Part shown: positions 21,148-32,119 of the stretch, in pieces
Position numbering within the stretch: the first letter of the stretch is position 1
How the letters are laid out: the number at the start of each line of letters is the position of its first letter
From: Acidobacteriaceae bacterium
GTDB lineage: Bacteria; Acidobacteriota; Terriglobia; Terriglobales; Acidobacteriaceae
Assembly (NCBI GenBank): GCA_003139795.1
Contig: PLGM01000276.1
Span: 1-50,588 of the forward strand
DNA: 50,588 bases
Reading direction: 5' to 3'
The notes under the pieces: model-generated
The model's database searches: none
What the model saw: only the letters and a program-made list of their open reading frames with translations
Told to the model about the DNA's origin: nothing
Program-made: the position numbers and the translations under genes

Positions 21148-24100
21148 TCAGTAGTACAGCTTCAGAGCAAACTGGATCTGCCTCGGATCGTAGGGAGCAT
21201 CGCGAGTGGATCCAACTTCGCCGAAGTGAGGATCGTTGAAGTTGGTCGAGCCCCCGATGGACACGACGCCGTTGCCGCCGAATCCTGGGGCATTGAAGTT
21301 CGGATGGTTGAGGATGTTGAAGAACTCAGCCCGGAACTGCATGGAGAAGCGTTCGTTCAGCTTGAACGCCTTGAACATGGAGTAGTCGAGGCGATGGAAT
21401 CCCGGTGTAACGGTCTGCCCGCCGCCGGTGCTTCCCAAAGCGGTTTCGCCTTGCAGAGGTACGCATCCGGCCGGTGAGCCAGGGATGGGACCTTCCGGCC
21501 CCAACTGGCAGGGTTGGTTGAAGGCTGCCGCGTTTCCGAGCCAGAACGGCCTGAGGGCGCCGTTGATGGTCTTCGACTTGATTCCAAGTTGCTGGCTCTG
21601 TCCGGCAACCCGGAGATCGTTGCAGCCGGTTCCGGAGGTCGTCCCGGTGGGGCAACCCATGTTGAGAGGTTGGCCGCCCTGGAGCGTGGCGATCCAGTTG
21701 AAGGACCACCCACCGATCACTGCATTGGCAACCCCGCCCTGGTTCAGGAAGCGCTTGTCCTTGCCGAAGGGTAGCTCATAGCCGCCGCTGAAGTGGACCA
21801 CCTGCTTGATGTTGAAGTCGGCCAGACCCCAATCGAACTTGGGTCCAAGGCCAGGGACGGAGGGAGCGCGCCACCCGCCGTTGCTGCCGCCGTTGAGCAA
21901 GTCGCCGGCGTCAGACAGGGTCTTCGAGAAGGTGTAGGTGAGGAGGTAAGTGAGCCCGTTCGCGAACTGCTGTTCGAGCTTGGTTTGCAGGCCGTGGTAT
22001 TGGCTGTTTCCTACGTTGGCCTGGTAGCTGCCGCCGCCAAAGTCCGGGAACGGCTCCATTCCGGGCAGTGGTTTGCCGGACGAATCCACCTGAGATGTGC
22101 TTGTTCCGGACGGGAAGATCGCACTTACGTTGTTGGTTCCTGTGCCCGCCTGAAGATCCTGGCCATCGGTGAACACATACGATGCCGTCGCGGACAAGGA
22201 GCGCGTGATTGAGTATTGGAAGGTGAGGTTGGCGCTGTAGGTGCGGGGGGTTTGGTAGTTGAACTGCAGTCCCTGCAAGCCCAGGCCATCGGCGTTCACA
22301 AAGGCCGGGGTAAAGGTAGTGCAGGATGCGCCGGCCTCCAGGCTTGCCGTTCCACCCGGACCTGCCGTGGCGCAGCCGGCAAACGCAGTGCCGTAGCTGA
22401 CGGGCGCCACCTGGGATGCCTGTTTCGGTTCGCTCGGAGCTGCCCTGGTGCCATACCCGAAGGAGTACTGGAAGGGATAATTCTCGCCGATGTTGGGTCC
22501 ATATCCCTGGTTCTCAAAGGAGTTGAAGAAGAGTCCAAACCCGCCGCGGACGACCAGTTTCGGATCCACCTGATACGCGAAGCCTACGCGGGGCGCAAGG
22601 TTGGTGTCCGGCGTCTGGAGCAGGCCTTTCCCGTATTCGTCGGTGAGGCTGAGGTTGATGCCATCCTTGGCCAGCAGGTCGATAAAGCCCCAGCAACCGA
22701 CGCCCAGGCAAGTACCGCTGCTGCCCGGCGTAGCCGCATTTGCAACTCCATTCCCGGTGGACAAAGTCCGGTTGTCCTTGCCGGAGGCAGGGATCAGGAA
22801 GGTGGGCGCTCCGAAGTAGGAGGGAACAAAGTTGCCCTGGCCGCCATTGGTCTCATTGATGGGACCAAATTTGTCCCAGCGGATGCCGAGATTGAGGGTC
22901 AACTTGGGAGTGACCTTCCAGTCGTCCTGCAGGTAAACAGCGCTGTATTCCTTTTCATCGTAGGTCTTGCCGATGTTGGAGATCCATACGCTGTCGGAGC
23001 CGCCGGAATAGCTGAATCCATTGGGATTGGGATTTCCCGCGATGGTGGCCGGAGCCGCTTGGGCGGGGATCAGGATTTGCGGAAGGCCACCGGTGGTGGC
23101 GCTCAGGTTGGGAATATCCATGAAGGTGCCGTTCCAGTCGAACTGGCCATGCGAACTGGCCGGCTGCAGGGTGGAAAACTTCACGTGCTGGAGTTCAACG
23201 CCCGCCTTGAAACTGTGCTTGCCGAAAATCTTCGTGATGTCGTCGGTCACCTGAAGAGTCTGGCTGACTTCGTCCGAAGGCAGGTAGTCGTTGCTGCCCA
23301 GGGTGGCCAGATTGGTGATATCGATGGCGGGAAGGCCGCCGTTCTCAGTCAACTGCGGGATGCCCTGGATTCCGTATTGCGCCGGAATGCCCATCACGGT
23401 GCCTTCCGGTCCGAAGCGCGTGGTGTGGAGGTGGGCGAATCCCGCGCGCACCTGGTTGATGGTGTTGGGAGTAAACACGTGGGTCCAGCCCGCCACGGCC
23501 TGATCGGATTTTGCGGTCTGGAGGCCCTGGTCGAAGGAGCCGCCATCGGCTATGCCGCCGAAGATGCCAGGAATGTACTGCGGGTCATCCGCATAGCTGA
23601 ATCGAACAAATACCTGCTCCTTCTGGGTGGGGTTGAAATCGAACCGCATATCGTAGGCGTTCTTATGCTCGAACAGATTGGGGCTCGATGTGAAAGTAGC
23701 CAACCCGGATGTCGGCGCCGGGTAGAGGCCCAGCAGCTTGACGGCGTTGGCGTCGACGCGGCCGGCAGGCAGCTGATTCAGGTTGCAGGAGGTGGTAAAG
23801 GTCATGGTGCTGGGTGCGCAGGTGCCGAACGGATCGCGCGCATAACCGTCGCTGGTGGTGTTATTGGTCAGGCCGGAAACCGGATCCACTGTTCCCGCTG
23901 CAACAAAGCGCGTGGTGGCAGGATCGAGGATTGTGCCGGGCATGATGGAGCGTCCCAGGATGTCCGTTCTGGCCGCACCAGCCGACTGGGTGAGGATGTC
24001 GGAGAGATTGGTGAAGCCGCTGCTCCGTTCCAGCGCGGTGGGAACCGTGCCGGTGGAAGCCGTGCCCTGGACGCGGCGCAGACCTTCGTAATCGCCGAAG

Positions 24101-25041
24101 AAGAAGATCTTGTTCTTGATGATGGGGCCGCCGCCGGACACGCCGAATTGATTCATGCGCAGCTCGCCCTTCTTGATTCCGCCGTTGTCTTCAAACCAGT
24201 CCGCGGCATCGAGTTTATCGTTGCGGAAAAACTCCCAGGCCGCGCCATGGAGGCTGTTGGTGCCGGACTTGATGGTGGCGTTCAGAACCGCGCCCGCGGA
24301 ACGGCCCAGTTCGGCGCTGAAGTCCGCTGTCTGGACCTTGAATTCCTGGATCGCGTCCAGCGGAGGAAGAATGACAAAGTTGGTGCCGTTGAGGAAGTCG
24401 ACGGCGTTGGAGTTGTTGTCGATGCCGTCCAGCAGGTAGTTGTTCTGCGCGGGGCGCAGGCCGTTGGCGGAGAATGCGCCCGAGGCCGCATTGCCGCGGG
24501 TGTCGGCTTGCGGCGTTTGCATGCCGGCGCCAAGCTGGGCAAGGAAAGTAAAGTTGCGCCCGTTGAGAGGCAGACTGTTCACGCTCTCCTGGGTGATTAC
24601 CTGCCCGACCGACGCTTCTTCGGTCTGCAGCAGCGGCGGCGCGGTTGACACCTCAACGGTTTCCGTCGCGGCGCCCGGTTTGAGTTGAACGTTGACCAGC
24701 AGGTGCTCCCCGACGGCCACCACCAGGTTCTCCTGGGTAGTCTTGGCAAAACCTCTCGCGGTGGCGGACACGGTGTAGTTCCCGATTCTGACTGGGGAGA
24801 AGAAATATTCACCGCTGTTGCTGGTTTTGGTTTCCGAGGTTATGGCCTGGTCCGTATTCACGAGGATCACCCGCGCGTTGGGAACAACCGCGCCGGTGCT
24901 ATCTTGAACCGTTCCAGAGATTGCTCCTTCATCCACCTGGCCAAATGCGTACCGGCTTGGGACCAGGAGGAGGCACAGAAATGCGAGGGCGAAGCAGCCA
25001 AACGCTCTTGCCCAACTGACGGCATTGCGATCAAGGCCCAT
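21148..25041 (-). CDS. Oar-type TonB-dependent receptor 2
   Basis: This 1297-residue outer-membrane receptor has GGAGGAA nine bases before the ATG. It has a signal peptide (CFALAFLCLLLVPSRYAFGQ) and a CarboxypepD_reg domain (GAISGTVQDSTGAVVPNARVILVN, GEYFFSPVRIGNYTVSATARGF). A plug follows (VNSLPLNGRNFTFLAQLG, NNYLLDGIDNNSNAVDF, IQEFKVQTADFSAELGRSAG), then a barrel ending RQIQFALKLYY. It heads the leftward unit TonB receptor, TPR protein, GH2 glycosidase, which resembles a compact polysaccharide-utilisation locus. Two LacI-type palindromes lie between its promoter and start codon, so expression is probably induced by a sugar ligand. Confidence 0.94.
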   Translation of the reverse strand: MGLDRNAVSWARAFGCFALAFLCLLLVPSRYAFGQVDEGAISGTVQDSTGAVVPNARVILVNTDQAITSETKTSNSGEYFFSPVRIGNYTVSATARGFAKTTQENLVVAVGEHLLVNVQLKPGAATETVEVSTAPPLLQTEEASVGQVITQESVNSLPLNGRNFTFLAQLGAGMQTPQADTRGNAASGAFSANGLRPAQNNYLLDGIDNNSNAVDFLNGTNFVILPPLDAIQEFKVQTADFSAELGRSAGAVLNATIKSGTNSLHGAAWEFFRNDKLDAADWFEDNGGIKKGELRMNQFGVSGGGPIIKNKIFFFGDYEGLRRVQGTASTGTVPTALERSSGFTNLSDILTQSAGAARTDILGRSIMPGTILDPATTRFVAAGTVDPVSGLTNNTTSDGYARDPFGTCAPSTMTFTTSCNLNQLPAGRVDANAVKLLGLYPAPTSGLATFTSSPNLFEHKNAYDMRFDFNPTQKEQVFVRFSYADDPQYIPGIFGGIADGGSFDQGLQTAKSDQAVAGWTHVFTPNTINQVRAGFAHLHTTRFGPEGTVMGIPAQYGIQGIPQLTENGGLPAIDITNLATLGSNDYLPSDEVSQTLQVTDDITKIFGKHSFKAGVELQHVKFSTLQPASSHGQFDWNGTFMDIPNLSATTGGLPQILIPAQAAPATIAGNPNPNGFSYSGGSDSVWISNIGKTYDEKEYSAVYLQDDWKVTPKLTLNLGIRWDKFGPINETNGGQGNFVPSYFGAPTFLIPASGKDNRTLSTGNGVANAATPGSSGTCLGVGCWGFIDLLAKDGINLSLTDEYGKGLLQTPDTNLAPRVGFAYQVDPKLVVRGGFGLFFNSFENQGYGPNIGENYPFQYSFGYGTRAAPSEPKQASQVAPVSYGTAFAGCATAGPGGTASLEAGASCTTFTPAFVNADGLGLQGLQFNYQTPRTYSANLTFQYSITRSLSATASYVFTDGQDLQAGTGTNNVSAIFPSGTSTSQVDSSGKPLPGMEPFPDFGGGSYQANVGNSQYHGLQTKLEQQFANGLTYLLTYTFSKTLSDAGDLLNGGSNGGWRAPSVPGLGPKFDWGLADFNIKQVVHFSGGYELPFGKDKRFLNQGGVANAVIGGWSFNWIATLQGGQPLNMGCPTGTTSGTGCNDLRVAGQSQQLGIKSKTINGALRPFWLGNAAAFNQPCQLGPEGPIPGSPAGCVPLQGETALGSTGGGQTVTPGFHRLDYSMFKAFKLNERFSMQFRAEFFNILNHPNFNAPGFGGNGVVSIGGSTNFNDPHFGEVGSTRDAPYDPRQIQFALKLYY

Positions 25042-25491: not shown

Positions 25492-26721
25492 ATGGAGAAC
25501 GGACTTTGCCCTGGCGCTGAGATTGGCTCCCCATTCGTGGTCGATCCTGGATCCCTTGTGGACCACTCCAAGCGGACCTTCCTGCGCGGAGCGGGAATGC
25601 TGATGGCTGGCCTTCTGCTTCCCACGGCGCGAGCTGGCCAGGGTCCGCGCGTTCAAGCCGGTTCAGGACACAAAATCGTGGTGGTCATCGTGGGCGGTGT
25701 GCGCCGCGATGAGACTTTTTCGCCCCAGGGGATGGTCAACATACCCCACCTCTCAGCGGACCTGCTGCCCAGGTCGCTCTTTTACCTTCACGCGCGCAAC
25801 GAAGGCGTGACCGCGCATTTCAACGCCATTTCCAGCATCCTCACCGGCAACTGGCAACGCGTGGACGACTGGGGGAAGCTGGCCCCCACCACGCCCACCT
25901 TGTTTGAACAATTCCGCAAGGGACTCGGCGTCGATCGCAGTGACACCTGGGTTGTAGCAAGCAATAAAGCCCTCACCAGCCTGATCGGCGCAAGCTCCGA
26001 TTCAAACTATGGCCCGGCGTATGGGGCCAACGTGGTGTTTCCCAAGCAACTGATGCTCATGGCTGTAGTCGACGCCCTGCGCAACGGACGAACCGCAAAC
26101 ATGGCGGACCGGAGCAAGGTGGAGGCCGAACTGGAAAGCGCGATGGAAGGGAGCAACTACGAAGGGCTGGGCTGGAACGTGTTCGACGCCTCCGACCGGC
26201 TCGATCCCCGCGTGCGCGGCAGCATCGAAACCGCTATCGCCAGTTTTGTCCGCGGTGGAGGCCCCACCTCCGGGGACGAGCTGACCTTTTTCATGAGTCG
26301 CGAGGTCATGCGCAAGTTCGCGCCGCAAGTGCTGGTGGTGGCTTTTTCCGACGTGGAAGCGGCGCACTTCGGTTCGTTTGCTCTCCACGTTTCGGGCATC
26401 CGAACGGCAGACCGCCTTGCCTACCAACTTTGGCAGGAGGTGGAAACGAACCCTGACTACCGCGGCAAGACGACTATGGTGATTCTGCCCGAATTCGGAC
26501 GGGATCCCGATGGTTCATCGACCAACGGATTCTTCAATCATCGCGCCAACATGGATTCAACCCGTGACACTTGGATGATGGCGCTGGGGGCGGCTGTCGA
26601 CAAGCCTCAAATCGTCGAGCGGCCCATTCACCACATCGATCTGTGTCCCACCCTCGCGGACCTGCTCGGTTGCCCGCCTCTGGATTCGCAAGGCCGAGCG
26701 ATCGGAGAGATTCGCGGTTAG
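25492..26721 (+). CDS. Exported alkaline-phosphatase-superfamily-like protein
   Basis: The product has 409 residues. A signal with a KR pair (HSKRTFLRGAGMLMAGLLLPTARAGQ) lies at about residues 28-50. The core resembles the alkaline phosphatase/sulfatase fold: KIVVVIVGGVRRDETF, GVTAHFNAISSILTGNW, VVAFSDVEAAHFG, VILPEFGRDPDG, NGFFNHRANM and a C-terminal HHIDLCPTLADLLG. The block where sulfatases have C/S-x-P-S-R before SLLTG reads HFNAISSILTG, so the usual nucleophile is not obvious. It may be catalytically changed or inactive. It is the first gene of the rightward operon. The in-frame region before 25492 contains the promoter and is not coding. Phosphatase, phosphodiesterase or DUF1501-like assignments all remain possible. 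Confidence 0.75.
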   Translation: MENGLCPGAEIGSPFVVDPGSLVDHSKRTFLRGAGMLMAGLLLPTARAGQGPRVQAGSGHKIVVVIVGGVRRDETFSPQGMVNIPHLSADLLPRSLFYLHARNEGVTAHFNAISSILTGNWQRVDDWGKLAPTTPTLFEQFRKGLGVDRSDTWVVASNKALTSLIGASSDSNYGPAYGANVVFPKQLMLMAVVDALRNGRTANMADRSKVEAELESAMEGSNYEGLGWNVFDASDRLDPRVRGSIETAIASFVRGGGPTSGDELTFFMSREVMRKFAPQVLVVAFSDVEAAHFGSFALHVSGIRTADRLAYQLWQEVETNPDYRGKTTMVILPEFGRDPDGSSTNGFFNHRANMDSTRDTWMMALGAAVDKPQIVERPIHHIDLCPTLADLLGCPPLDSQGRAIGEIRG

Positions 26722-26882: not shown

Positions 26883-28187
26883 ATGCGCATCGAGGACAAG
26901 TTGCCGGGGGATATTCAGGACGCTTTAAGCAAGGGCCTGCTCAAACGCATTCCGCTCACCTTTCTCCCCTTCGTCAATCAGCAGCTCAACCAGTGGGTCA
27001 ACCTGTTCCCAAATGAAAGGCAGGCGACCGAAAGGCTGCTCCTCTATGTTGCAAGCTTGAACGAGGAGCAGTCCACCGCCCTCTTTCACGAGGTGGTCGA
27101 ACTCGAAGAGAAGATGGGCGTCCGGAACTGGCAGTTCTCGACCACCGAACAGACCATCCAGAACTCCTCTCAACTGGCCAGTTCACCCTACTTTCAGCAT
27201 TGGCGGCAGGCGGTGCAGGCGGTCTTCGACGCCGCGGACGCGCATGTCCGCGAGGCGAACAACGCCTCAGCCAAATCCGGAAACCGGCTGGTTCTGCTTG
27301 ATATTCCGCAGCCTCTCCAGGTCGATGCGGCAAGCGTTTGGCAAAGATGGCAGGGAATCGGCCGGCCTGTGCAACTCGATCTTGGGCTAACCGGTGAGCA
27401 CAACAGCGCATTGGAGCTGCTTTTGGCCGGCACGCCCAACCCGGCCGGTTTGCGGTCTGGAGGCCTCTTGGATCTTGCCCGGAGCCGTCCCGAAGCTGCG
27501 CCGGCGGACGTTTGGGTGGTGGATGCGGGAAGGAGCCTGGTTGACGCCCTTCTCGCGCCGGAGACTGCCGGCACGGCTGCGTCAGGAGCTATTTTGCTGA
27601 GCAACGGGAGGCTGGATCTCTACCGTCAGAGCTTTTCGCACGAAATGAACACCATGCGCAAAGACCTTGCCGATGCCGACGCGGTGTTCGATCGCCTGCG
27701 CAAAGTCGACGTCACCCCATGGTGTCCTCCTGAAGTAGCCGCGGACCCCGCCATTCGCGAGTTCCTGCGCTCGCTCTATCTCACCGGAAACGGCGCCGTG
27801 ATCTTTGGCAACTCCTTCGTGGAATGGGCCGCCTCTGAAGCGTTTCGCCGCGCCCGGCCTTCCTTCCTGGCGGCACAATTCGGCGTGCGCAGCAAGCCCA
27901 AACCGTTTACCGGCGTGGCCGTGTTCGACAACCCGGATCAGGTGAATCCCCTCCCTGCCATCGACGACCTGCCGGGGAGCGCCGTGGACGCGCGCATGCT
28001 GGCCCTCTACGTGTGGCTGGCCGCCTATCGTTACCCGGAATACCAGCGCTCCACCGTGTGCGTCTGCGTGGCCGAGAGCCTTTCCCAGGCCTACGTGGTC
28101 GCTCCACCAGAATTTGGCCTCTGGAAGGAAACCGAGCCCGTCCCGCTTGGCCGGCTCGCCGGCGCGCTGCGCGCCTGGATGGCTTGA
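26883..28187 (+). CDS. Conserved-looking protein of unknown function
   Basis: I do not recognise this 434-residue protein. It has no signal peptide or membrane segment. The N-terminal 150 residues are charged and helical (DKLPGDIQDALSKGLLKRIPL, ERLLLYVASLNEEQSTALFHEVVELEEKMG). The middle is alpha/beta-like (NRLVLLDIPQPLQVDAASVW, ADVWVVDAGRSLVDALLAPE). The C-terminal half contains LYLTGNGAVIFGNSFVEWAASEAFRRARP and VDARMLALYVWLAAYRYPEY, followed by QRSTVCVCVAESLSQ. AAAGGA lies seven bases before the ATG. It sits between two exported proteins in one operon, 95 bases before the FG-GAP fusion gene, suggesting a cytoplasmic partner in the same process. Codon use matches the neighbours. Confidence 0.75.
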   Translation: MRIEDKLPGDIQDALSKGLLKRIPLTFLPFVNQQLNQWVNLFPNERQATERLLLYVASLNEEQSTALFHEVVELEEKMGVRNWQFSTTEQTIQNSSQLASSPYFQHWRQAVQAVFDAADAHVREANNASAKSGNRLVLLDIPQPLQVDAASVWQRWQGIGRPVQLDLGLTGEHNSALELLLAGTPNPAGLRSGGLLDLARSRPEAAPADVWVVDAGRSLVDALLAPETAGTAASGAILLSNGRLDLYRQSFSHEMNTMRKDLADADAVFDRLRKVDVTPWCPPEVAADPAIREFLRSLYLTGNGAVIFGNSFVEWAASEAFRRARPSFLAAQFGVRSKPKPFTGVAVFDNPDQVNPLPAIDDLPGSAVDARMLALYVWLAAYRYPEYQRSTVCVCVAESLSQAYVVAPPEFGLWKETEPVPLGRLAGALRAWMA

Positions 28188-28282: not shown

Positions 28283-31200
28283 ATGACGCGTCACAAAAGA
28301 GACCATCGAGGCCTGTCCCGGCGGACACTCCTCAAGAGCATAGGCCTGGCGCCCCTGCTCCTGCGTCCGTCACCGTTTTACGGTTCCTCGTTGCTATTCG
28401 AGCCCCCTGAGCTTCTCCCCCGTCGCAACCCCGAATTCCCTTTCTCCGATCTTCGTTTGACGCCCCACTATCCGGCAAAATCTCCTCTGGCGGATGTTTT
28501 CCGCCTTGTCCCTCCCGGTTCGGACGAGTACATCACCGAGAAATATGCTTCTGAAATTGAGCTCCTCCTCAAACAATGGAGCCAGGCTCTCAAGGCATCC
28601 GTCCGCGGCCTTTCCTCCCTGGCGCAGTCGCTGCACCCCTTGATCGAAGCTTCCCCGCTGACTCCAACCAGGGAAATCCCTCTGCGTTCCGGATACGGAA
28701 TCGATGTGGTGCGAAGGCAGTTTGCCGCCAGTGCCGTTTCCGGGCGCGAGCGATTTCTCCTGGAACTCCAGGGCTGGCTGGGGAACGTCTCGCGGGTGGA
28801 AACCGCGGAATTCGAAATCTACGGCATCGAGCAGATCGCCGCCGCTCCGCTGACGGTTCGCCTGGAAATCCGATATGACATCGTCGCCGGCGGCAACGAT
28901 GAGCGACGCGAAGAGCGGGTTGGATCATGGCGCACCGAGTGGTCGCGCGATCCATCGCAAGTGTGGACAGCGAGCCGGTGGGAGGCTGGCGAAGAAACCC
29001 TCGGCATCACCCGCGGGCAAGCCTTTCTCGACGTCACTCCGCAGGCTCTTGGCGGAGCTGAATCCTACTCCCGGCAGATGCTTCGCGGCGTCGACTACTG
29101 GCGCACGGTCATGGACAGCGCCATCGGCATCGACGTTTATTCCAACAATGGCGTGGCGGCGGGCGACTTCGACAATGACGGCTTCGATGACTTCTATGTC
29201 TGCCAGCCGGCCGGACTGCCAAACCGGCTTTACCGCAACCGCGGTGACGGAACCTTTGAAGACGTAACGGAAAAATCCGGCGTCGGCGTGCTCGACAGTA
29301 CCGCCTGCGCTCTGTTCGCCGACTTTCAGAACCGGGGGCTCCAGGACCTGCTCGTCGTTTGCGGCACCGGTCCCCTGCTCTTCCTCAATCAAGGCAACGG
29401 CGCCTTCTCCATCAAGCGCGATGCCCTCAGGTTTGCACGTCCTCCTCAGGGAACCTTCACGCACGCCGCCGTAGCCGACTACGATCGCGATGGACGCCTC
29501 GATATTTACTTCTGCACGTATATGTACTACCTCGGCCTCGACCAGTATCACTATCCAATCCCCTATTACGATGCCCGCAATGGTCCGCCCAATTGCCTGT
29601 TCCACAACGAGGGGAACGCGACTTTTGTCGAGACCACGGAGGCGGCGGGATTGAACGCCGATAACGACCGCTACAGCTTCGCGTGCGCCTGGGGCGATTC
29701 CAACTCCAACGGATTACCCGATCTTTTTGTTGCCAACGATTTCGGCAGCTCGCAGCTTTATCGCAACAACGGCAATGGAACCTTCACCGTTGCCTCACGC
29801 GAGGCCCACATCGAGGACGTGGGGGCCGGAATGAGCTGCTGTTGGTCCGATTTCGATAACGACGGACTCCAGGATATTTACGTTCCCAGCATGTGGGAGG
29901 CCGCCGGACAAAGGGTCTCGGAACAAAAGCAGTTTCACCAAAACGCCCCGGAGAATATCCGCGAACTCTACCAGCGCCACGCGCGCGGCAATGCCCTCTA
30001 TCGGAACCAGGGCGACGGAACGTTCAAAAACGTCGGCCGCCAGGCCCGCGTTGAAATGGGCCGTTGGTCCTGGTCCTCGGATTTCTGGGATTTCGATCAC
30101 GACGGATACCCTGACCTCTATGTCGCCAACGGCTACATCTCCGCCCTCGACGGCAACGACCTCGCCAGCTTCTTCTGGCGCCAGGTGGTGGCCAAATCCT
30201 CTGAGGACGCTACCCCTTCGCTCGCTTACGAGCATGGATGGAACGCCATCAACGAATTGATCCGCTCCGACTCCACGTGGCATGGCTATGCCAGAAACGT
30301 CATGTTCGCCAACAATCGCGATGGCACTTTTTCTGAGGTCTCCGGCCCCGTCGGGCTGGACTTCATTGAGGATAGCCGCACCTTTGTTCTCGCCGATCTT
30401 GACCACGATGGACGGCTGGAAGTCATCCTCAAGAATCGCAACGCTCCTCAACTCCGGATATTGCACAATGCGATGAAGGACATTGGCCACTCCATTGCAT
30501 TCCGCCTGCGAGGACATACAAGCAATCGCGACGCCATCGGGGCGGCAGTCACCGTGGAAGCGGAGACTCTGCGCCAGACCAGGTATCTTCAGGCTGGAAC
30601 CGGGTTTCTGGCCCAGCACTCCAAAGAGCTGTTCTTTGGCTTGGGAAACACGGAAGGTAAAGTCCGGGCCTCAATCCGCTGGCCGAATGGCCTTTCCCAG
30701 CAATTTGCCGATCTCCCTGTGAACCACAGAATCGAAATTGAAGAAGGTTTCGCCACATTTGTGGCCAAACCCTTCGCCGCGCCAACGTCAAGCTACGCCC
30801 AGGCAGGAGCGCCGCCAACGTTGCAACCGCTGCCTTCCCAGGTTGACACATGGCTCATCGACCCCTTGAGGGCGCCCGCGTTTTCCCTGCCCGATCTGGC
30901 GGGCAACATGCGTGAACTCCGCTCCTTGCGTGGGAGCTTTGTGTTTCTCAACTTCTGGTCCACTGCCGCGCCGCTCTCTCTCGACCAGTTGAGACTTCTC
31001 CATCGCAGCCGGCCGGCGCTGGCCGCAAGTCAACTGCAAATCCTGGCCGTAAACGTGAACCAGCCGGCCGATACTCAAGCGGCCCGGGCGTTTGCCGCGC
31101 AGGAGGCGCTTTCCTTTCCGGTCCTTTTTGCCACCGAAGATGCAGCCGGCATTTATAACATCATCTATCGTCACCTATTCGACCGCCGCAGGGACCTCGG

Positions 31201-32119
31201 GATTCCCACCTCCTTCCTGCTGGACAAAGAAGGCATGATCGTCAAGGTGTATCAGGGGCCGATCGATCCTCAGCGCCTGCTGGAGGATGCCAAGTCTGTC
31301 CCCACCACGGCGCCGGATCGCATGCGGAAGGCGATTCCGTTCCCTGGAATGCTCTACCAGAGCGCGTTTCTCCGCAATGACTTTACCTACGGTGTGGCCA
31401 TGTTCCAGCACGGTTATCTGCCGCAGGCCGCGGAGTCCTTTCTGGAAGTCGTCGCCGCCAAGCCGGACGATCCCGACGCGTATTACAACCTGGGTACGCT
31501 CAGCCTGCGCAGAAATGACTTTCCTGAGGCGCGCAACTATCTTCAGCAGGCTTTGAAGCTTCGCCCCAACTACCCTGAAGCGTGGAACAATCTGGGCATG
31601 ATGGCCGCCCAGCAAGGACACCCGGAAGATGCTATCCAGAACTTTCAGCAGTCGCTGCTCCTTCGCCCCGGATACGCTACCGCCCTCCTGAACCTGGGCA
31701 ATGTCTACCGCCGGCAGCAGGATTTTGTGAAGGCTGAGGAATGCATGAGCCATGCGCTCAAGATTCAACCCGGCGATCCTGAAGTCAACTACAGTCTCGG
31801 GATGCTTTATGCCCAGCAAAACCAGTTGCAACTCGCATCGGACTATTTGCGCAAGGCCATTGACCTGCGTCCGGACTATCCCGAAGCCCTGAACAATCTC
31901 GGCGTTCTCTTCGTCCGGGAGCAGGATTACTCGAAAGCGGAAAAGCAATTCAAGACCGGCATCCGCGTCGCCCCCGACTTCGATCAGTCCTATCTCAACC
32001 TTGCCCGTCTCTACACGATGCAGAACGACAAGGAAAATGCCAGAGAAGTGTTGCAGGAGTTGCTGCGCCTGCAACCCCAGAATCCGGGCGCGAAGCAGGC
32101 CCTGGAAATGCTGCAATGA
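28283..32119 (+). CDS. Tat-exported FG-GAP/UnbV-ASPIC, cysteine-less redoxin and TPR fusion protein
   Basis: This 1278-residue protein opens with a twin-arginine signal (LSRRTLLKSIGLAPLLL). The next 260 residues are helical and unassigned. FG-GAP/VCBS calcium-binding repeats span about residues 285-730 (GDFDNDGFDDFYV, DYDRDGRLDIYFC, DFDNDGLQDIYVPS, DFDHDGYPDLYVANG, DLDHDGRLEVILKN). A UnbV/ASPIC domain lies near 750-825 (AVTVEAETLRQTRYLQAG, KELFFGLGNTEGK). A TlpA/redoxin-like domain at about 860-1000 reads FLNFWSTAAPLSLDQL, where the family has WCxxC, so both cysteines are missing. Six or so TPRs follow to the C terminus. This start is set by the Tat signal. The architecture extends the CRTAC1 family, and the location is probably periplasmic or outer surface. 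Confidence 0.9.
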   Translation: MTRHKRDHRGLSRRTLLKSIGLAPLLLRPSPFYGSSLLFEPPELLPRRNPEFPFSDLRLTPHYPAKSPLADVFRLVPPGSDEYITEKYASEIELLLKQWSQALKASVRGLSSLAQSLHPLIEASPLTPTREIPLRSGYGIDVVRRQFAASAVSGRERFLLELQGWLGNVSRVETAEFEIYGIEQIAAAPLTVRLEIRYDIVAGGNDERREERVGSWRTEWSRDPSQVWTASRWEAGEETLGITRGQAFLDVTPQALGGAESYSRQMLRGVDYWRTVMDSAIGIDVYSNNGVAAGDFDNDGFDDFYVCQPAGLPNRLYRNRGDGTFEDVTEKSGVGVLDSTACALFADFQNRGLQDLLVVCGTGPLLFLNQGNGAFSIKRDALRFARPPQGTFTHAAVADYDRDGRLDIYFCTYMYYLGLDQYHYPIPYYDARNGPPNCLFHNEGNATFVETTEAAGLNADNDRYSFACAWGDSNSNGLPDLFVANDFGSSQLYRNNGNGTFTVASREAHIEDVGAGMSCCWSDFDNDGLQDIYVPSMWEAAGQRVSEQKQFHQNAPENIRELYQRHARGNALYRNQGDGTFKNVGRQARVEMGRWSWSSDFWDFDHDGYPDLYVANGYISALDGNDLASFFWRQVVAKSSEDATPSLAYEHGWNAINELIRSDSTWHGYARNVMFANNRDGTFSEVSGPVGLDFIEDSRTFVLADLDHDGRLEVILKNRNAPQLRILHNAMKDIGHSIAFRLRGHTSNRDAIGAAVTVEAETLRQTRYLQAGTGFLAQHSKELFFGLGNTEGKVRASIRWPNGLSQQFADLPVNHRIEIEEGFATFVAKPFAAPTSSYAQAGAPPTLQPLPSQVDTWLIDPLRAPAFSLPDLAGNMRELRSLRGSFVFLNFWSTAAPLSLDQLRLLHRSRPALAASQLQILAVNVNQPADTQAARAFAAQEALSFPVLFATEDAAGIYNIIYRHLFDRRRDLGIPTSFLLDKEGMIVKVYQGPIDPQRLLEDAKSVPTTAPDRMRKAIPFPGMLYQSAFLRNDFTYGVAMFQHGYLPQAAESFLEVVAAKPDDPDAYYNLGTLSLRRNDFPEARNYLQQALKLRPNYPEAWNNLGMMAAQQGHPEDAIQNFQQSLLLRPGYATALLNLGNVYRRQQDFVKAEECMSHALKIQPGDPEVNYSLGMLYAQQNQLQLASDYLRKAIDLRPDYPEALNNLGVLFVREQDYSKAEKQFKTGIRVAPDFDQSYLNLARLYTMQNDKENAREVLQELLRLQPQNPGAKQALEMLQ

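Follow-up and report, generated by a model that had tools for sequence, protein, structure and literature searches.

How does a protein come to keep a thioredoxin-fold domain from which the active-site cysteines have disappeared? The question is raised by a gene at 28283..32119 (+) in a 50,588-nucleotide stretch from an Acidobacteriaceae bacterium (GenBank assembly GCA_003139795.1, contig PLGM01000276.1), the whole of which we will refer to as the window. The gene runs from an ATG at 28283 to a stop codon ending at 32119, and its translation, the 1278-residue window protein, joins an FG-GAP propeller of the CRTAC1 type to an UnbV domain, a redoxin and an array of tetratricopeptide repeats (TPRs), an architecture confirmed by Pfam and by its orthologues. 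An earlier note on this DNA had described an exported scaffold with a redoxin devoid of CxxC. That cysteine loss is one half of a double loss, and the other half was overlooked: homologues carry an in-frame UGA, apparently for selenocysteine (Sec), in the propeller as well as an intact CxxC in the redoxin, and the window protein has neither. We consider it likely that these homologues form an extracytoplasmic family in which the redoxin recycles the propeller Sec, and that the window protein is a redox-dead but retained descendant.

The exported, multidomain CRTAC1-type reading agrees with the Pfam matches and with a Tat-like (twin-arginine translocation) N-terminus, LSRRTLLK. The redoxin, of the AhpC-TSA or TlpA/ResA-like type, lies at residues 863-988 (30869..31246, +; Pfam E 1e-12) and is also recovered by structural modelling and Foldseek. 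Its framework is the expected one, but AAPLS stands in place of the active site; in the alignment, residues 896-899 (APLS; 30968..30979, +) replace CxxC, with Ala896 and Ser899 in the two cysteine columns. The cis-Pro column, P975 (31205..31207, +), is invariant in Sec and non-Sec relatives. A model of the window protein, built with UGA-bearing homologues as the alignment (predicted local distance difference test score, pLDDT, 89.4; predicted template modelling score, pTM, 0.91), finds murine CRTAC1 (9etn) as its best PDB match by Foldseek (E 5.8e-28, TMt 0.70) and ResA (2f9s) as the next (E 6.6e-11, TMt 0.84). The thioredoxin fold, for which the earlier note had proposed a structure prediction, is thus predicted with confidence and is no chance match.

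The domain is also being maintained. Measured against the three closest orthologues, the ratio of nonsynonymous to synonymous substitution is about 0.17-0.22 in the redoxin, 0.07-0.10 in the propeller and 0.12-0.14 in the TPRs; the redoxin is therefore kept under purifying selection and is not decaying freely. Eleven genomes of the same genus, and further genomes from elsewhere in the family, contain orthologues of this architecture, all of them without CxxC and with differing letters at the site (TTAKVS, ANAPLA, TSQES, DSPACS and others). General cysteine loss, which the earlier note had raised as a question, is accordingly seen within the protein's own family, but the wider family mostly keeps CxxC, together with a UGA in the propeller. 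Orthologues with an intact CxxC, which the earlier note had counted as contrary evidence, do exist in that wider family, but almost only among UGA-bearing members.

In-frame UGA codons in related genes

In other families of the Acidobacteriota, the gene appears as two open frames split by exactly one in-frame stop codon. The splitting stop is always TGA and always falls within DL[TGA]SFFWRQVV or DL[TGA]SFLWRQVV, and the same frame runs on beyond it through UnbV, redoxin and TPRs, for a median of 655 further codons. When one genome per species was scanned for the pattern, at least 114 such stretches came up, 80 of them listed as loci, from Planctomycetota, Verrucomicrobiota and Acidobacteriota. 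In a protein search of 29 UGA-bearing genomes, nearly all of the matches listed contain exactly one TGA; family matches number 27 at most in a genome (G446) and 17-18 in three others, counts that include some contig-edge fragments. The window gene shares with these genes the order propeller, UnbV, redoxin, TPR and the SFFWRQVV motif (residues 629-636; 30167..30190, +), which is kept beside the former Sec site. It differs from them at codon 628, where alignment and codon comparison place GCC (Ala628; 30164..30166, +) opposite the UGA, in having no hairpin of the kind described below, and in belonging to a genome with neither selB nor a clear tRNA-Sec.

Two simple accounts of the UGA were tried and rejected. 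A change of code, with TGA read as Trp, is ruled out since TGG serves for all 2608 Trp codons in the UGA frames and TGA is the terminal stop in 37 of 94 UGA genes. Pseudogenes or sequencing errors are ruled out by the recurrence of one fixed codon in more than 100 distinct genes.

Insertion of Sec at this codon is suggested first by the RNA that follows it. Eleven bases past the UGA begins a hairpin resembling a selenocysteine insertion sequence (SECIS), with the stem GCGNC / GNCGC and the loop AGGUCGU; a G-U in the loop is what a bacterial SECIS should have. The complete stem, with its five pairs, occurs in 100 of the 114 UGA genes versus 2 of 32 non-Sec genes, which code for nearly the same peptide at this place, and the loop stretch CAGGTCGTG is found in 100 of 114 versus 5 of 32. 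Pair 17-27 covaries (G-T 48, A-T 29, G-C 28, C-G 3, T-G 1, five misfits), and two AGG genes have a compensating A-T at pair 15-29. In the window DNA, which belongs to the non-Sec set, no SECIS-like hairpin was found, and the loop reads CAGGTGGTG.

The second indication is the Sec machinery. Of the 10 Acidobacteriota genomes in which a UGA gene was verified here, 9 have a selB match above the cut-off, the tenth (G306, 72% complete) having a partial match; selB was also found in 8 of 10 genomes from Planctomycetota and Verrucomicrobiota. A full-scoring tRNA-Sec is present in most of the UGA genomes scored from all three phyla. In the window genome, which is 95% complete, the best selB match reaches 75 bits versus a cut-off of 242, and the best tRNA-Sec match 47.2 bits, just above the cut-off of 47 and at the background level of many genomes. 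Ten non-Sec genomes do possess selB, so that the loss of Sec at the propeller site is not merely a loss of machinery.

The 119 families and subfamilies of prokaryotic selenoproteins listed in a 2026 review (PMC13188914) include TlpA with UGC and UxxC proteins of the redoxin family. As in the known prokaryotic cases, we find a UGA, a hairpin just downstream and Sec machinery in the genome; unlike the thioredoxin-like selenoproteins of the review, which have Sec in the redoxin motif, the present proteins would have it in the propeller, and their redoxin keeps Cys. No CRTAC1, UnbV or FG-GAP family is among the 119, and NCBIfam has no selenoprotein model matching the propeller part. No paper joining selenoprotein or selenocysteine with ASPIC or FG-GAP was found, and CRTAC1 with selenoprotein returned only animal and human proteins, subscription papers being outside both searches. 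Provisionally, then, the UGA-bearing relatives appear to be an undescribed selenoprotein family.

Several further observations concern the occurrence of the UGA genes. Two contigs of G446 (loci L262 and L263) start exactly at the family UGA codon; the near-identical UGA-hairpin stretch common to the paralogues probably breaks assemblies there. A search with the non-Sec motif gave 0 matches in 294 Planctomycetota genomes, which says little because the exact UGA pattern itself matches only 2 of 59 drawn genomes of that phylum; in Verrucomicrobiota it matches 1 of 59, namely the centre genome itself. Judged by eye, many of the UGA proteins have a signal peptide, a lipobox or a membrane anchor; the signals of the window clade are of the Tat type. 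Inspection of the neighbouring genes by eye revealed no constant partner gene of the Sec forms, whose neighbours vary. Genes that look, again by eye, like those of lamin-tail-domain surface proteins were noticed near five loci from Verrucomicrobiota and Planctomycetota (L119, L136, L148, L171 and L183).

Coupling and history of the two sites

The propeller UGA and the redoxin CxxC tend to occur together. Among 72 UGA genes selected on the TGA alone, 69 have CxxC. An alignment of 137 sequences contains 102 with both, 30 with neither, four with UGA only and one with CxxC only; the query that retrieved the non-Sec set was the window protein, itself devoid of CxxC, a choice that may favour CxxC-less relatives, and a Fisher test of the two traits, being phylogenetically non-independent, is not relied on. 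The single CxxC-only sequence, L096 (genome G228), is a fused non-Sec relative with Asn at the Sec site and GCRAC in the redoxin, and is an intermediate, with Sec gone and CRAC kept. Only a few conserved columns of the Sec forms are lost in the non-Sec ones, namely Sec, both cysteines of CxxC and, in window protein numbering, D351, D474, N490, S539 and D713. Replacements at the Sec site are A, G, S, N, D, E or Q, and the adjoining SFFWRQVV is nearly fixed.

Trees built without the trait columns place the non-Sec Acidobacteriota in one clade nested among the Sec forms (Shimodaira-Hasegawa-like approximate likelihood ratio test, 98). Sec was therefore probably ancestral in the Acidobacteriota and lost once. 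By parsimony, at least three losses of CxxC followed the loss of Sec: one in the window family, one in the D/E clade and one in L259/L261. L096 retains the motif. L259 and L261 (Bryobacterales/Terriglobia) have only the second half of the redoxin, the first being deleted, and have Glu or Cys at the Sec site, Cys being the residue in L261. Many independent losses of Sec were also searched for on the trees, which yielded instead the one nested clade and one long-branch case, the planctomycete sequence L260 (Ala, WDDPS), resembling a second double loss.

This history bears on how the redoxin entered the family. Domain shuffling, in which a CRTAC1 protein captured an already inactive redoxin for use in binding and the UGA relatives are a separate story, would accord with the existence elsewhere of redoxin-like domains without CxxC and with the selection that maintains the fold. 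This account is made quite unlikely by the CRAC of L096, by the well-supported nesting of the non-Sec clade, by which the tree already disfavours such a capture, and by the occurrence in three phyla of the identical domain order with UGA and an intact CxxC.

A proposed relay and its alternatives

A model of one UGA homologue, L183, with U read as C (pLDDT 91.6, pTM 0.92), indicates where the two sites would act. Residue 371, the Sec position, opens a helix at 370-379, and C642 and C645 lie at the start of a helix at 643-654; reactive selenols and thiols are usually placed at such helix starts. We propose that Sec, at the helix N-terminus in DL-Sec-SFFWRQVV, is most likely the catalytic group of a reductase or peroxidase type, and that the fused TlpA-like CxxC domain would serve as a built-in reductant, re-reducing Sec after each turn. 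Within the acidobacterial clade to which the window protein belongs, sense codons would have taken the place of the Sec codon, with loss of the SECIS-like hairpin, and CxxC, unneeded once Sec was gone, would then have decayed. The window protein would be redox-dead because both sites are lost, and most likely acts as an exported binding scaffold; its calcium-type propeller, UnbV, thioredoxin fold and TPR surfaces are kept by selection. The earlier idea of a scaffold re-using a thioredoxin fold for binding thus stands as regards fold, export and loss of CxxC, whereas the words 'for binding' remain conjectural. On balance, it seems reasonably probable that the relatives represent an unrecognised and sizeable family of extracytoplasmic selenoenzymes, reaching 27 matches in one genome, whose propeller Sec is recycled by the fused TlpA domain. 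The window clade would then be a rare instance in which the loss of both redox sites can be traced while the scaffold stayed in use for another job.

Some observations weigh against this proposal. Sec insertion and activity are predictions from sequence. No family in Rfam, the SECIS ones included, fits the hairpin, and its single-sequence folding energy is no better than that of shuffles, although this z-score is uninformative. G446, with its 27 family matches, has no selB though its tRNA-Sec scores 69 bits, and in G448 neither selB nor tRNA-Sec was found. The four UGA sequences without CxxC (L132, L148, L158 and L219) form one Verrucomicrobiota clade, the reverse of L096. Lastly, the coupling rests on Sec having been lost once or twice and CxxC several times afterwards, and not on many independent co-losses; its statistical weight is therefore moderate.

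The same two facts, the CxxC-less UGA clade and the small number of Sec losses, would suit a propeller Sec serving metal binding or structure instead of catalysis, with the loss of CxxC incidental. Such a role is possible but doubtful, given that CxxC is kept in 102 of 106 UGA sequences and was lost at least three times after Sec. Nor is it likely that the window protein is still redox-active through other residues, for instance Cys307 and Cys411, or through partner proteins: nine cysteines are left, eight of them in the propeller, but none stands at the Sec or CxxC columns and nothing links them to redox work. Finally, although the gene mechanically reads as two open frames and Sec is here a prediction, a programmed stop or conserved frame break yielding two proteins is very improbable, as the break would fall inside the propeller at a helix start, a covarying stem-loop directly 3' of the UGA is kept only in UGA genes, SelB and tRNA-Sec occur in nearly all UGA genomes, and relatives with a sense codon have one continuous frame.

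Proteins of the CRTAC1/UnbV type are abundant in the Acidobacteriota and in the Planctomycetota-Verrucomicrobiota group, and we know of no function for them. One branch, by its in-frame UGA, points to redox chemistry based on selenium and to the residue where it would take place, and so opens the function to direct testing. If the UGA does encode Sec, gene callers that read it as a stop split these proteins in two, and some genomes of Planctomycetota and Verrucomicrobiota would each hold at least a dozen more selenoproteins than are counted in them. The window lineage would provide the contrast case, the same scaffold after loss of both redox sites.

Other features of the locus

The Tat-type signal occupies 28283..28384 (+) and is common to the close orthologues. 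It is followed by a region of unknown fold (residues 35-270; 28385..29092, +), homologous in many fused relatives and the fastest-evolving part of the protein. The FG-GAP calcium-type beta-propeller covers residues 271-740 (29093..30502, +), with FG-GAP_3 (PF13517) matching in six stretches (E 2.2e-48), so that tandem repeats are present; the UnbV_ASPIC domain (PF07593, E 3.9e-16) follows at residues 751-817 (30533..30733, +), and the TPR array closes the protein at residues 1036-1278 (31388..32116, +; TPR families from E 1.4e-42). Like murine CRTAC1, the best fold match of both models, and other ASPIC-UnbV proteins, the protein combines an FG-GAP propeller with UnbV; unlike them, it adds the N-terminal region, the redoxin and the TPRs, and has relatives with an in-frame UGA. 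With the TlpA and ResA oxidoreductases (1jfu, 2f9s; PF00578, PF08534) it shares the fold and the cis-Pro of the redoxin segment, but its redoxin lacks CxxC and is fused, not free-standing.

A gene resembling those for TonB-dependent receptors (21148-25041, -) is the divergent neighbour of the window gene, and a divergent adjoining gene of this kind is found in most family members, an arrangement consistent with, though no proof of, a role at the surface or in the periplasm. The two genes upstream encode a 434-residue protein (26883-28187, +) and a Tat-type protein (25567-26721, +) that reads like an alkaline phosphatase/DUF1501-type enzyme; neither has a Pfam or NCBIfam match, and in each of the four closest relatives at least one of the two is again found next to the gene. 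The genome as a whole has 150 FG-GAP_3 matches, a large expansion of propeller proteins. It also carries a second copy of the gene (L039; contig C312, 2079-5126), whose codon at the Sec site is TCA (Ser), one step from TGA, and whose redoxin motif contains a single Cys (CQQS).

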